Below, in pieces: positions 1,636-49,252 of a stretch of DNA of 64,000 nucleotides. The stretch's first letter is position 1. Each line of letters starts with the position of its first letter. A program made the translations under genes and the position numbers. The DNA comes from Pseudarthrobacter albicanus (GTDB lineage Bacteria; Actinomycetota; Actinomycetes; Actinomycetales; Micrococcaceae). The stretch covers positions 1 to 64,000 of the forward strand of contig NZ_JAGPOT010000009.1 of NCBI RefSeq assembly GCF_018224015.1, read 5' to 3'. The notes beneath the pieces were generated by a model. That model saw only the letters and a program-made list of their open reading frames with translations. It did no database searches and was not told where the DNA came from.

Positions 1636-1743
1636 TCCCCGGCTCGTGCCCCGTCTTCCGGGTGCCGTAATCTGGGGGCGCCGCAGCGGGCCAGCCGGTA
1701 ACCTGACCTTAAAGCAGTGCCGTCGCCTAGCCAGGAGTTATCC

Positions 1744-3045
1744 GTGACCACTTCCGTTAGCCTTTCATCCGCCGCCGTGAGCAACCAGCCGCTGGCCGAC
1801 CTTGATCCCGAAATCGCCGCAGTCCTTGCCCAGGAGCTTGGCCGCCAGCGCGGCACCCTGGAAATGATCGCCTCCGAGAACTTCGCCCCGCGCGCCGTCA
1901 TGGAGGCCCAGGGCTCGGTCCTGACCAACAAGTACGCCGAGGGCTACCCGGGCCGCCGCTACTACGGCGGCTGCGAGTACGTCGACGTCGCCGAGCAGCT
2001 GGCGATCGACCGCGTCAAGGACCTCTTCGGCGCCGAATACGCCAACGTGCAGCCGCACTCGGGCGCCCAGGCCAACGCGGCCGCGCTCGCCGCCATGATC
2101 ACTCCGGGAGACAAGATCCTGGGCCTGTCGCTGGCCCACGGCGGCCACCTGACCCACGGCATGAAGCTGAACTTCTCCGGCAAGCTCTACAAGGTTGCCG
2201 CGTACCAGGTCGAGGAAGACACCTTCCGGGTCGACATGGACAAGCTGCGCGCGCAGGCCGTCGCCGAGAAGCCGCAGGTCATCATCGCCGGCTGGTCCGC
2301 GTACCCCCGCCATCTCGACTTCGCCGCCTTCCGCTCCATCGCCGACGAGGTCGGCGCGCTGCTCTGGACGGACATGGCCCACTTCGCCGGACTCGTGGCC
2401 GCCGGCGTGCACCCGAGCCCGGTGCCGCACTCCGACGTCGTGACCTCCACCGTGCACAAGACCCTCGCCGGCCCGCGCTCCGGCGTGATCCTGGCCAAGC
2501 AGGAATGGGCCAAGAAGCTCAACTCCGCCGTCTTCCCGGGCCAGCAGGGCGGCCCGCTCATGCACGTGATCGCCGCGAAGGCTGTGGCCTTCAAGATTGC
2601 CGGGACCGCTGAATTCAAGGAGCGCCAGGAGCGCGTCCTGGAAGGCGCCCGGATCATCGCCGACCGCCTCAACCAGGCCGACCTGGCCGACGCCGGCGTG
2701 TCCGTCCTGACCGGCGGCACGGATGTGCACCTGGTCCTGGTGGACCTGCGCAACTCCGCGCTGGACGGCCAGCAGGCCGAAGACCTGCTGCACTCCGTCG
2801 GCATCACCGTCAACCGCAACGCCGTGCCGTTCGATCCCCGCCCGCCGATGGTCACCTCGGGCCTGCGCATCGGCACCCCGGCCCTGGCCACCCGCGGCTT
2901 CGGTGCCGAGGAGTTCACCGAAGTTGCAGAGATCATCGCCGCGGCGCTGAAGGCCGGTGCGGCCACGGACGTGGAGGCCCTGCAGTCCCGCGTGGACAAG
3001 CTCGCGGCGGACTTCCCGCTGTACCCGCAGCACGAGCAGTGGTGA
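1744..3045 (+). CDS. glyA: Serine hydroxymethyltransferase
   Basis: GlyA is a PLP enzyme that interconverts serine plus tetrahydrofolate with glycine plus 5,10-methylene-THF, and is the main source of one-carbon units. The 433-residue product carries the family landmarks [11 protein letters not shown] near the N-terminus, [20 protein letters not shown], and the PLP-lysine motif [12 protein letters not shown] (Lys near residue 239). I place the start at GTG 1744, seven bases after an AGGAG ribosome-binding site at 1732-1736; an upstream in-frame GTG at 1717 lies before that site and is unlikely. folD follows with almost no gap. The leader carries a ZTP riboswitch. Confidence 0.97.
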
Positions 3046-47435: not shown

Positions 47436-48395
47436 ATGACAGCTGAAAAGGACCTCCACGCCCTGCTGGCGACCATCCATCCCGTGCTCCGCGAGGGCGA
47501 GTTCGTCTATGTCCTGTGGCCGCACGGCAAAGCCCTGGCGGGCGGCATCGCGGCCGCCGTGCGGGAGGCCGAGGGACTGACCGTGGTGTTGCCGCGGGCC
47601 GAGGCGGACCGGCTGGGGCTGTCCTATGACTTTGTCGGGGCCTGGATCACTCTCGAGGTGCATTCCTCCCTGGAAGCGGTGGGCCTGACGGCTGCCGTCG
47701 GCACAGCACTGGCCGCGGCGAAAATCAGCTGCAATGTGCTGGCCGGCTTCCACCACGACCATCTGCTGGTGCCTGTGGCGGATACGGAACGGGCGCTGGA
47801 GGTCCTGCACGAACTGGCCGCCGACAGCGGCCGGCCTCGGCCCGCGGCGGTGCAGGTGCTGCGAAGCGAACAGCCGGCGGACCGCCCCGCCATCCTGGCC
47901 CTCACCGCCGCGGCTTTCGCCGTCTCACCGCTGACCGGGCTGCCCGTCGAGGGGGAACCGGAAGAGGTCGGGCTGCTGCGCCGGCTTTTCGACTGTGCGG
48001 ATTACCTCCCCGAATTCAGCATCGTGGCTGTGCTCGACGGCGAGATCGTGGGGCATGTCATCAGCACCCGTGGCCGGGTGGGGGAGCTGGAACTCCTGGG
48101 ACTCGGCCCCATCGGCGTGCTGCCGCGCCTCCAGCGCCACGGCATCGGTTCCGCGCTCATGAAGGAAACGGTGGTCCGGGCCAACGCCGCGGGGGAGCGG
48201 GGCATTGCGCTGCTGGGGGACCCGGACTATTACGCCCGATTCGGCTTCGTGCCCTCCACATCCCTCGGCGTGGAGCCGCCGGACCCCGCGTGGGGCGTGC
48301 ACTTCCAACTGCTCCCGCTCGCGGTCTGGCCCGGCGGCGTCAGCGGGACCTTCCGCTATGCCGGGCCGTTTAATGAACCCTCCGGCGTCGCGTAA
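47436..48395 (+). CDS. ACT-domain / GNAT acetyltransferase fusion protein
   Basis: The protein has 319 residues in two parts. Residues about 1-130 match the COG3602 ACT group (REAEGLTVVLPRAEADRLGL, LEVHSSLEAVGLTAAV, ISCNVLAGFHHDHLLVPV). ACT folds usually bind amino acids. Residues about 140-300 form a GNAT fold (RSEQPADRPAILALTAAAF, LPRLQRHGIGSALM with the acetyl-CoA loop, and DPDYYARFGF, a YhbS-type signature). An amino-acid-sensing or amino-acid-acylating enzyme is plausible but inferred. A tRNA gene starts 33 bases after the stop, so cotranscription is possible. Confidence 0.88.
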   Translation: MTAEKDLHALLATIHPVLREGEFVYVLWPHGKALAGGIAAAVREAEGLTVVLPRAEADRLGLSYDFVGAWITLEVHSSLEAVGLTAAVGTALAAAKISCNVLAGFHHDHLLVPVADTERALEVLHELAADSGRPRPAAVQVLRSEQPADRPAILALTAAAFAVSPLTGLPVEGEPEEVGLLRRLFDCADYLPEFSIVAVLDGEIVGHVISTRGRVGELELLGLGPIGVLPRLQRHGIGSALMKETVVRANAAGERGIALLGDPDYYARFGFVPSTSLGVEPPDPAWGVHFQLLPLAVWPGGVSGTFRYAGPFNEPSGVA

Positions 48396-48427: not shown

Positions 48428-48501
48428 GCCCCAGTAGCCCAATTGGCAGAGGCAGCGGACTTAAAATCCGCGTGTTGTGGGTTCGAGTCCCACCTGGGGC
48501 A
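48428..48501 (+). tRNA. tRNA with UAA anticodon (Leu-like) but short variable arm
   Basis: A full cloverleaf folds over 74 bases: acceptor GCCCCAG/CTGGGGC, a D arm of the leucine type (AATTGGCAGA loop), anticodon stem GCGGA/TCCGC with loop CTTAAAA (anticodon TAA), a 5-base variable region GTGTT, T arm GTGGG TTCGAGT CCCAC and discriminator A. The 3' CCA is not encoded. Normal bacterial tRNA-Leu has a long (type II) variable arm. This one has a type I arm while keeping Leu-like D and anticodon arms, so it may be a variant or repurposed leucine tRNA. Confidence 0.9.
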
Positions 48502-48505
48502 CAGG

Positions 48506-48802
48506 TCAGGCGGCGGCGCCCGGGGTGAAGTAGTTATGGGCTTCCAAGTACCTCACCTTCGGGGGTTCCGGTATCCCGGCCTCTGCACTGAAAGGCCCGA
48601 TCTGCTCCTGCGCGAAGGCGTCGTAGAGCTCCTTGGACTGCCAGAGGTCCGTGACGAGGATCCCGTTGTCCGTGGCTGCCACCCAGTGCCCGAGGGCACC
48701 GGCCGGACCGGGCCCTCCTGGGGTGAGGCCCATTTTGCCGATGACCTGGTCATATTGCTCCAGGGTGGCACCAGCAAATTCCATGATGACTGCAACTGCC
48801 AT
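48506..48802 (-). CDS. Small protein, probable dimeric alpha/beta-barrel fold
   Basis: The 98-residue product (AVAVIMEFAGATLEQYDQVI, ALGHWVAATDNGILVTDLWQ, YDAFAQEQIGP) has the pattern of antibiotic-biosynthesis-monooxygenase-like (ABM) dimeric alpha/beta barrels. The role is unknown. A GTGAGGTGAGGGA ribosome-binding site sits before ATG 48802. It converges on the tRNA gene and ends four bases from it. Confidence 0.75.
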   Translation of the reverse strand: MAVAVIMEFAGATLEQYDQVIGKMGLTPGGPGPAGALGHWVAATDNGILVTDLWQSKELYDAFAQEQIGPFSAEAGIPEPPKVRYLEAHNYFTPGAAA

Positions 48803-49252
48803 GTCCCTCACCTCACAACCGGCAGGCCGCAACGCGGCGGCCCACAAATGTATTGATATGGCTTGGTCTACGCTCCACCGTGGGGATCGTCAATAACCGA
48901 CGGAAAGGCCACTGTCCTGCTCCGCGCGGGTTTGCTCCCCGCGGGACGTTCTTCGGACACTCCAGCAAGAAGAAGTCCGAACGGCGCAGGTTCACCACGA
49001 TGGTCAGGATCATGCAACTGCCGGGGACGTGGCCGCCAGTGCGGCGCGAGTAGCCGGGACCGCAGCGACGGCGGTATGTCCGCCACCGTTGTCCCCCAAC
49101 TCCACAGATTTCTCCCAGGCAACGAGTGTTATCAGGATGTGACCGTAGTCCCTTATTTTCCGGTGGGATATGCATTAGCTTGAAGCTAAATCAGGAACAC
49201 CTGATCTTTCGCGTCAAAGGCCGTTCGCACCTTTAGATCGAGGAGATTATAC
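48803..49252 (+). other. Intergenic region before the binding protein, with two inverted repeats
   Basis: No gene is supported here. Two inverted repeats lie side by side: TTAGCTTGAAGCTAA (49175-49189, perfect 7-1-7) and ATCAGGAACACCTGAT (49190-49205, perfect 6-4-6), 48-78 bases before the livJ-like start. They are candidate operators or leader stems. A GAGGAG ribosome-binding site precedes the gene. Confidence 0.6.

Follow-up and report, generated by a model that had tools for sequence, protein, structure and literature searches.

Bacterial tRNA-Leu is taught as one of the three tRNAs carrying a long variable arm. The gene at positions 48428-48501 of the window (by which we mean the whole stretch of DNA analyzed here, 64 kb in length) has a leucine anticodon and a variable loop of only five bases. 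Is it the regular tRNA with which this organism reads UUA, or a leucine-like tRNA put to some other use, as a preliminary description of the sequence had proposed? We consider it very probable that the gene encodes an ordinary leucine tRNA, charged by LeuRS and the sole reader of UUA, of a structural class that is unusual but common in its lineage. The organism would then depend on the short tRNA-Leu(UAA) as its regular and only UUA reader, one example of a widespread actinobacterial form in which a loop of five, sometimes six, bases replaces the class II arm.

Structure of the tRNA Gene and Its Closest Known Counterparts

The letters, ARAGORN and Rfam agree on a complete cloverleaf with anticodon UAA, discriminator A73 and a five-base variable loop, as had been described from the sequence initially; the parts are collected in Table 1. 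ARAGORN calls tRNA-Leu(taa) at 48428-48502, the sole tRNA that it calls in the window, and the Rfam tRNA model matches the full length of 48428-48501 with 64.1 bits (E = 1.3e-11). Free folding of this interval recovers the acceptor, anticodon and T stems at -32.4 kcal/mol (z = -2.9); its minimum-energy drawing pairs positions 10-12 with 18-20 next to a longer anticodon stem, and the standard D stem is not drawn. We assign the standard D stem because of the Rfam match and because 10-25 and 11-24 covary among relatives. A scan for promoter-like and terminator-like sites near the gene revealed none. Chance or pseudogene origin was ruled out by the Rfam score together with 143 covarying homologues, and a chimera with tRNA-Trp or tRNA-Arg was dropped, the best global match being the genome's own tRNA-Leu(CAA), with 62 identical positions versus 59 for tRNA-Arg(UCU).

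Table 1. Position and structure of the tRNA gene, its arms and the upstream gene (window coordinates).
Feature	Position	Strand	Remarks
tRNA-Leu(UAA) gene, short (type I) variable loop	48428..48501	+	A73 at 48501; CCA not encoded
D arm GCC-C-AATTGGCAGA-GGC	48437..48453	+	pairs 10-25, 11-24, 12-23; C13.A22 mismatch
Anticodon arm GCGGA-CTTAAAA-TCCGC	48455..48471	+	anticodon UAA at 48462-48464
Variable loop GTGTT, five bases (44-48)	48472..48476	+	U48 able to form trans-Levitt pair with A15
T arm GTGGG-TTCGAGT-CCCAC	48477..48493	+	letters, free folding, homologues
ACT-ACT-GNAT protein gene	47436..48395	+	upstream, 32 bases before tRNA

The acceptor stem reads GCCCCAG/CTGGGGC. In the D arm, A14, A15, G18G19 and A20a stand in the leucine layout, and the arm is one nucleotide longer than in the Lys, Asn and Trp tRNAs of the same genome, which bears out its earlier characterization as leucine-like. 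The segment AATTGGCAGA is common to the window tRNA and the own Leu(CAA); the own tRNA-Asn has it too, so that it is not leucine-specific.

Four known systems come close. Class II tRNA-Leu(UAA), including bldA of Streptomyces, has the anticodon UAA, A73, A14/A15 and the leucine D-loop layout in common with the short form, but combines a variable region of 11-17 nt (in the sequences that we collected) with G12-C23 and G9, whereas the short form has C12-G23 and mostly A9; with five nucleotides in place of the ten or more that define class II, the window tRNA lacks the arm of the bldA type. The mitochondrial tRNA-Leu(UUR), compared here by description, likewise has no long arm, and its LeuRS is described as using mainly A73 and A14; it differs in being mitochondrial, in the floppy anticodon branch of its transcript and in the enzyme that serves it (PMC9976931). 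A mycobacterial tRNA-Leu(TAG) is also a short-variable-loop leucine tRNA in an actinobacterium, but is reported from a horizontally acquired, likely phage-derived cluster as an extra copy beside the normal one (PMC6582537). The allo-tRNAs, finally, are non-canonical and read leucine codons; they are described as inserting serine and as having acceptor/T arms of 8/4 or 9/3 (PMC7609411), unlike the window tRNA with its 7/5 arms and leucine determinants.

Distribution of the Short and Long Forms

Across the genomes of the order, short and long Leu(UAA) are nearly mutually exclusive. Of 248 genomes, 189 match the short pattern, some of them by chance, and 47 match the strict long-arm pattern; from the matched letters we judge these 47 to comprise 36 real cases, 10 chance matches and one genome (G210) with an odd 9-nt tRNA. 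The 36 real cases are made up of five f3/g50 genomes, eighteen of f4, twelve of f14 and one (G023) from the window's own family, and 33 of the 36 are without a short-pattern match among the matches listed. The short-pattern match of G290, another real long-arm genome, is a chance match by its letters; G167 has two such matches, one by chance and one (L346) failing the stem check; G348 carries both forms. A six-base loop was present where the five-base pattern had missed in four f17 genomes, G172 and G365. Among individual loci, the loop has 6 nt in L342, L343 and L358-L361 and 7-9 nt in L333, L334, L341 and L363.

Some genomes deserve separate mention. The long-arm gene of G023 (L340), a genome without a short-pattern match, could reflect reversal, retention or import. 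L341 (G210) and L363 (G421) are UAA tRNAs of 76 bases in which the variable loop has 9 nt and the D arm is of another type (GGCC...AGCC); they are almost the same in genomes of two families and perhaps represent a separate mobile tRNA. The complete 1.46-Mb genome of IMCC26103 (G387:C1) has two short Leu(UAA) matches 13 kb apart, at 76667 and 89594.

A scan of named records gave at least 118 short-form loci. Each of the 118 listed has A73 and no fewer than 6 of the 7 acceptor pairs. Their number is no census, because the pattern prescribes the five-base loop length, U48 and a portion of the D arm (GGCAGAGGC). Among the loci listed, 110 are Actinomycetota by title, the titles including Mycobacterium, Mycolicibacterium, Nocardia, Rhodococcus, Gordonia, Corynebacterium, Dietzia, Tsukamurella and Amycolatopsis as well as Pseudonocardia, Actinomadura, Streptosporangium, Nocardioides, Microbacterium, Arthrobacter, Acidimicrobiales and others. 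Six listed loci bear other phylum names (L151, L154, L173, L174, L219, L234) and two are unspecified (L184, L245); since all eight are metagenome bins, misbinning is possible for them. A sample of 149 genomes across the phylum contains 136 from outside the window's own class; of these 136, 114 match, 22 reading as short and about 90 as long, and all 22 short forms were fetched and confirmed as short. Outside the own class the long form therefore prevails, and the Streptomyces-like group g122 has it in 6/6 genomes.

The preliminary description held that the tRNA lacks the arm of every ordinary bacterial tRNA-Leu. This is accurate for the own genome and does not extend to the phylum, in which short forms are common; its mention of odd type I leucine-like tRNAs in actinobacteria was well placed. 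ARAGORN labels such short-arm genes tRNA-Leu(taa) without remark. In the open-access literature, with subscription papers and preprints outside the scope of the search, we found no account of short-arm Leu(UAA) beyond the short-loop tRNA-Leu(TAG) as described in PMC6582537, and judged from this literature the novelty of the form in print is uncertain.

We also considered whether the short form is confined to the anticodon UAA, an idea that was dropped. When the anticodon is left free, 129 of 178 genomes in the order contain a match to the short leucine body. Among the matches listed, short Leu(CAA) occurs in many families, including f3/g50 and f14, whose Leu(UAA) stays long, and there are single cases with UAG (G162) and CAG (G335); the 20 non-UAA short loci that were fetched (18 CAA, one UAG, one CAG) are all 74-base cloverleaves with A73. 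Short-arm leucine tRNAs are present in phages as well (UAA in Myxococcus phage Mx1 and Mycobacterium phage Kykar, CAA in Rhodococcus phage Peregrin), and with several anticodons in two tRNA-dense stretches, one of 26 tRNA genes in a Chloroflexaceae MAG (L173, 56-4411) and one of 21 in a Pyrinomonadaceae MAG (L234, 74-4667).

A D-Arm Change Coupled to the Short Loop

Among 143 distinct short-form homologues, compensatory changes are seen in the acceptor, anticodon and T stems, and C13, A14, A15 and A73 are present in 143/143. None of these four was required by the search pattern, which did require, among others, G18G19, A20a, A22, G23 and U48. Where the search imposed no D-arm pattern, GCCCAA and A73 occur in 36/36 tRNAs, A14 and A15 likewise in 36/36, and GGCAGAGGC in 34/36.

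The D core was then compared between 139 distinct tRNA-Leu(UAA) from loci found without a D-arm requirement, a set that left out L143-L260, L281-L310, L355, L381-L386 and L456 onward and for which, outside the own class, all 22 short and 18 of the about 90 long forms were fetched, picked before their D arms had been seen. Every tRNA whose variable loop does not exceed 6 nt has C12-G23 with C13.A22 (74/74), and every one with a variable region of at least 10 nt has G12-C23 and G9 (61/61), CC at 12-13 being found in 0/61; three of the 61 long forms do have C13.A22, but paired with G12-C23, and four of the 139 tRNAs are of intermediate length. The association of arm length with the D core gives a Fisher p of 6e-40, not corrected for relatedness. 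The short form L253 carries the CC signature once its acceptor stem is correctly placed. Among the short forms, the outer D pairs (10-25, 11-24) are GC/CG in 63, TA/CG in seven, CG/TA in three and CG/CG in one; the signature at 12-13 is more than whole-arm identity, because these outer pairs still covary.

The short loop is coupled to a fixed D core, C12-G23 with C13.A22, in place of the G12-C23 of long-arm forms, and we suggest that this altered core presumably lets the tRNA body pack without the long arm, as a class I tRNA.

Leucine tRNAs of the Own Genome and Its Congeners

The own assembly (G000) is a draft of 4.57 Mb in 241 contigs, 94.8% complete, in which the Rfam tRNA model has 44 matches, each typed by ARAGORN. 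The other leucine tRNAs found there are long-arm, with ARAGORN lengths of 83 (CAA), 83 (UAG) and 84 (GAG) bases. A search for a further tRNA-Leu(UAA), as recommended in the preliminary description, had a negative outcome here, with none among the 44 typed tRNAs, and by pattern in seven congeners. For the own draft the absence is weak alone, because Leu(CAG), Phe and Asp tRNAs are likewise missing among those typed. The seven congeners, 99-100% complete, each have one match of the TTAAAATC...GTGTT type among the matches listed, and the strict long-arm pattern finds no long-arm Leu(UAA) in them. Such pattern searches can miss tRNAs, as 9 of 26 probed genomes gave neither short nor long Leu(UAA) (G417, G440, G458, G416, G456, G473, G392, G426 and G204); in these nine the tRNA may have diverged, fall into an assembly gap or be truly absent.

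The 3' end of the own tRNA-Leu(CAA) (G000:C101:23923-24004) is repeated at G000:C66:874-897 and, at a distance of about 20 kb on its own contig, at G000:C101:3879-3902, which resembles the attachment-site trace left by an integrated element.

UUA as a Leucine Codon and Probable Charging by LeuRS

Whether UUA means leucine was examined in the LeuRS genes of seven lower-GC genomes from another family of the order (G182, G224, G263, G237, G347, G377, G250), all with the short form and with no long-arm Leu(UAA) found, the single long-pattern match in G237 being due to chance. These genes contain 27 UUA codons, 15 of them in G237. At conserved columns, defined by at least 60% agreement among 13 other genomes, UUA falls on leucine in 18 of 21 cases (the others being two valine and one alanine), with UUG at 107/119 and CUG at 76/81 for comparison. 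In this small sample from one protein family, UUA is, as judged from the alignment, a codon that behaves as leucine where the short tRNA is the sole reader found.

The tRNA itself carries the leucine identity list, namely A73, the A15-U48 trans-Levitt pair, G18G19, A20a and U8-A14, together with an anticodon for a codon that relatives place at leucine columns. For E. coli tRNA-Leu the determinants given in PMC9976931 are A73, A15-U48, G18G19 and A20a, the long arm not being named in that list; human mitochondrial tRNA-Leu(UUR) is described there as recognized by LeuRS yet without a long arm. Against this, the long arm is given as a leucine determinant in the archaeon H. volcanii. Because the E. 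coli determinants are intact in the window tRNA and do not include the long arm, charging by LeuRS is to be expected; the tRNA should be a LeuRS substrate, recognized, as the short form in general would be, through A73, A15-U48, G18G19 and A20a. The gene is presumably also expressed. The own draft has one LeuRS gene above the family cut-off, and since its Leu(CAA) is long, one enzyme would serve both forms.

Alternative Explanations and Implications

The reading first put forward for this gene, a repurposed or regulatory tRNA that would act, alongside a long-arm tRNA-Leu(UAA) of the normal kind, as a bldA-like switch or in some role outside translation, now appears very improbable. Such a role would suit the rarity of UUA, correctly named from the outset as the rarest leucine codon (6 of the 1954 leucine codons in the 55 heuristically called genes of the window), and UUA decoding is regulatory in Streptomyces (PMC4255298). 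However, neither the own draft nor, by pattern, the seven congeners offered the second Leu(UAA) that it presupposes, the short form is kept in genomes of lower GC content, where UUA is used more (15 times in one LeuRS gene) and still stands at leucine positions, and the group resembling Streptomyces itself has the long-arm form. The developmental significance of bldA may moreover not reach beyond the Streptomycineae, outside which TTA is described as sometimes occurring in conserved growth-associated genes (PMC4255298). The proposal has thus found no support. It is also highly unlikely that another synthetase, for example that for Ile, Ser or Arg, charges this leucine-anticodon tRNA, leaving UUA mistranslated or reassigned: the acceptor stem is indeed identical to that of the own tRNA-Arg(UCU), and allo-tRNAs on the leucine codons CUC and UUA inserted serine in E. 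coli (PMC7609411), but relatives have UUA at leucine columns, the acceptor sequence varies across short forms while A15 and A73 are constant, and 7 acceptor and 5 T pairs are unlike the 8/4 and 9/3 of allo-tRNAs. We give almost no credence to a degraded or recently acquired mobile gene from a phage or tRNA array, of no cellular importance. The short-arm leucine tRNAs of Mx1, Kykar and Peregrin and of the tRNA-dense L173 and L234 lend it some color; against it stand the same upstream gene at 10 loci, the single copy in each of the seven congeners among the matches listed, and the strong stem covariation across 143 homologues.

For the regular leucine tRNA that we prefer, the direction of change was presumably loss of the arm. 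That the short form is instead old or horizontally spread, and not the outcome of arm loss in place, is a possibility of some weight, if the lesser one. All 74 short forms have one D-arm signature, phages carry copies, and in f49, f57 and f87 the acceptor stems are not shared between short and long forms, which fits import or separate histories; in f56 and f58, by contrast, short and long forms share the family-typical acceptor stem (GCGGGCG in 5/6 of f56, GGGGGCG in 12/12 of f58), which fits change in place. A bolder proposal, unlikely as we judge it at present, is that UUA/UUG leucine tRNAs have repeatedly, and perhaps reversibly, switched between class II and class I in Actinomycetota with the same coupled rewiring and the amino acid unchanged. 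Nucleases specific for long-arm tRNAs exist, and if class switching were true, its benefit could lie in evading nucleases or synthetases that recognize such tRNAs, an idea with which the presence of short-arm leucine tRNAs in phages and in tRNA-dense stretches would agree.

Many Actinomycetota, mycobacteria included, seem to run their UUA, and often their UUG, leucine tRNA without a long arm. One LeuRS charging both forms would constitute a natural experiment on leucine identity and tRNA class. For tRNA classifiers, tRNA sequencing and orthogonal-tRNA design in actinobacteria, the long arm should not be assumed, and the bldA model of Streptomyces should be checked before it is transferred to short-form bacteria.

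Genomic Neighborhood

Of the 121 tRNA-bearing loci compared, 10 have a homologue of the upstream ACT-ACT-GNAT gene in front of the tRNA, on the same strand and at a distance of 26-74 bases, with record titles that include Arthrobacter, Pseudarthrobacter, Paenarthrobacter and Renibacterium. An identical tRNA is found in a 1.35-Mb replicon (labeled plasmid) of Arthrobacter sp. StoSoilB13, where stretches of the surrounding DNA are 74-88% identical. Downstream of the tRNA, a small ORF at 48506-48847 on the reverse strand (113 aa) has no Pfam match; a similar stretch occurs elsewhere in the own genome, at G000:C228:30717-30770, with 81% identity over 54 bases. Near the start of the window, a serine hydroxymethyltransferase gene at 1717-3045 is preceded by a predicted ZMP/ZTP riboswitch aptamer at 1486-1571 on the forward strand (40 bits, with a cut-off of 39).
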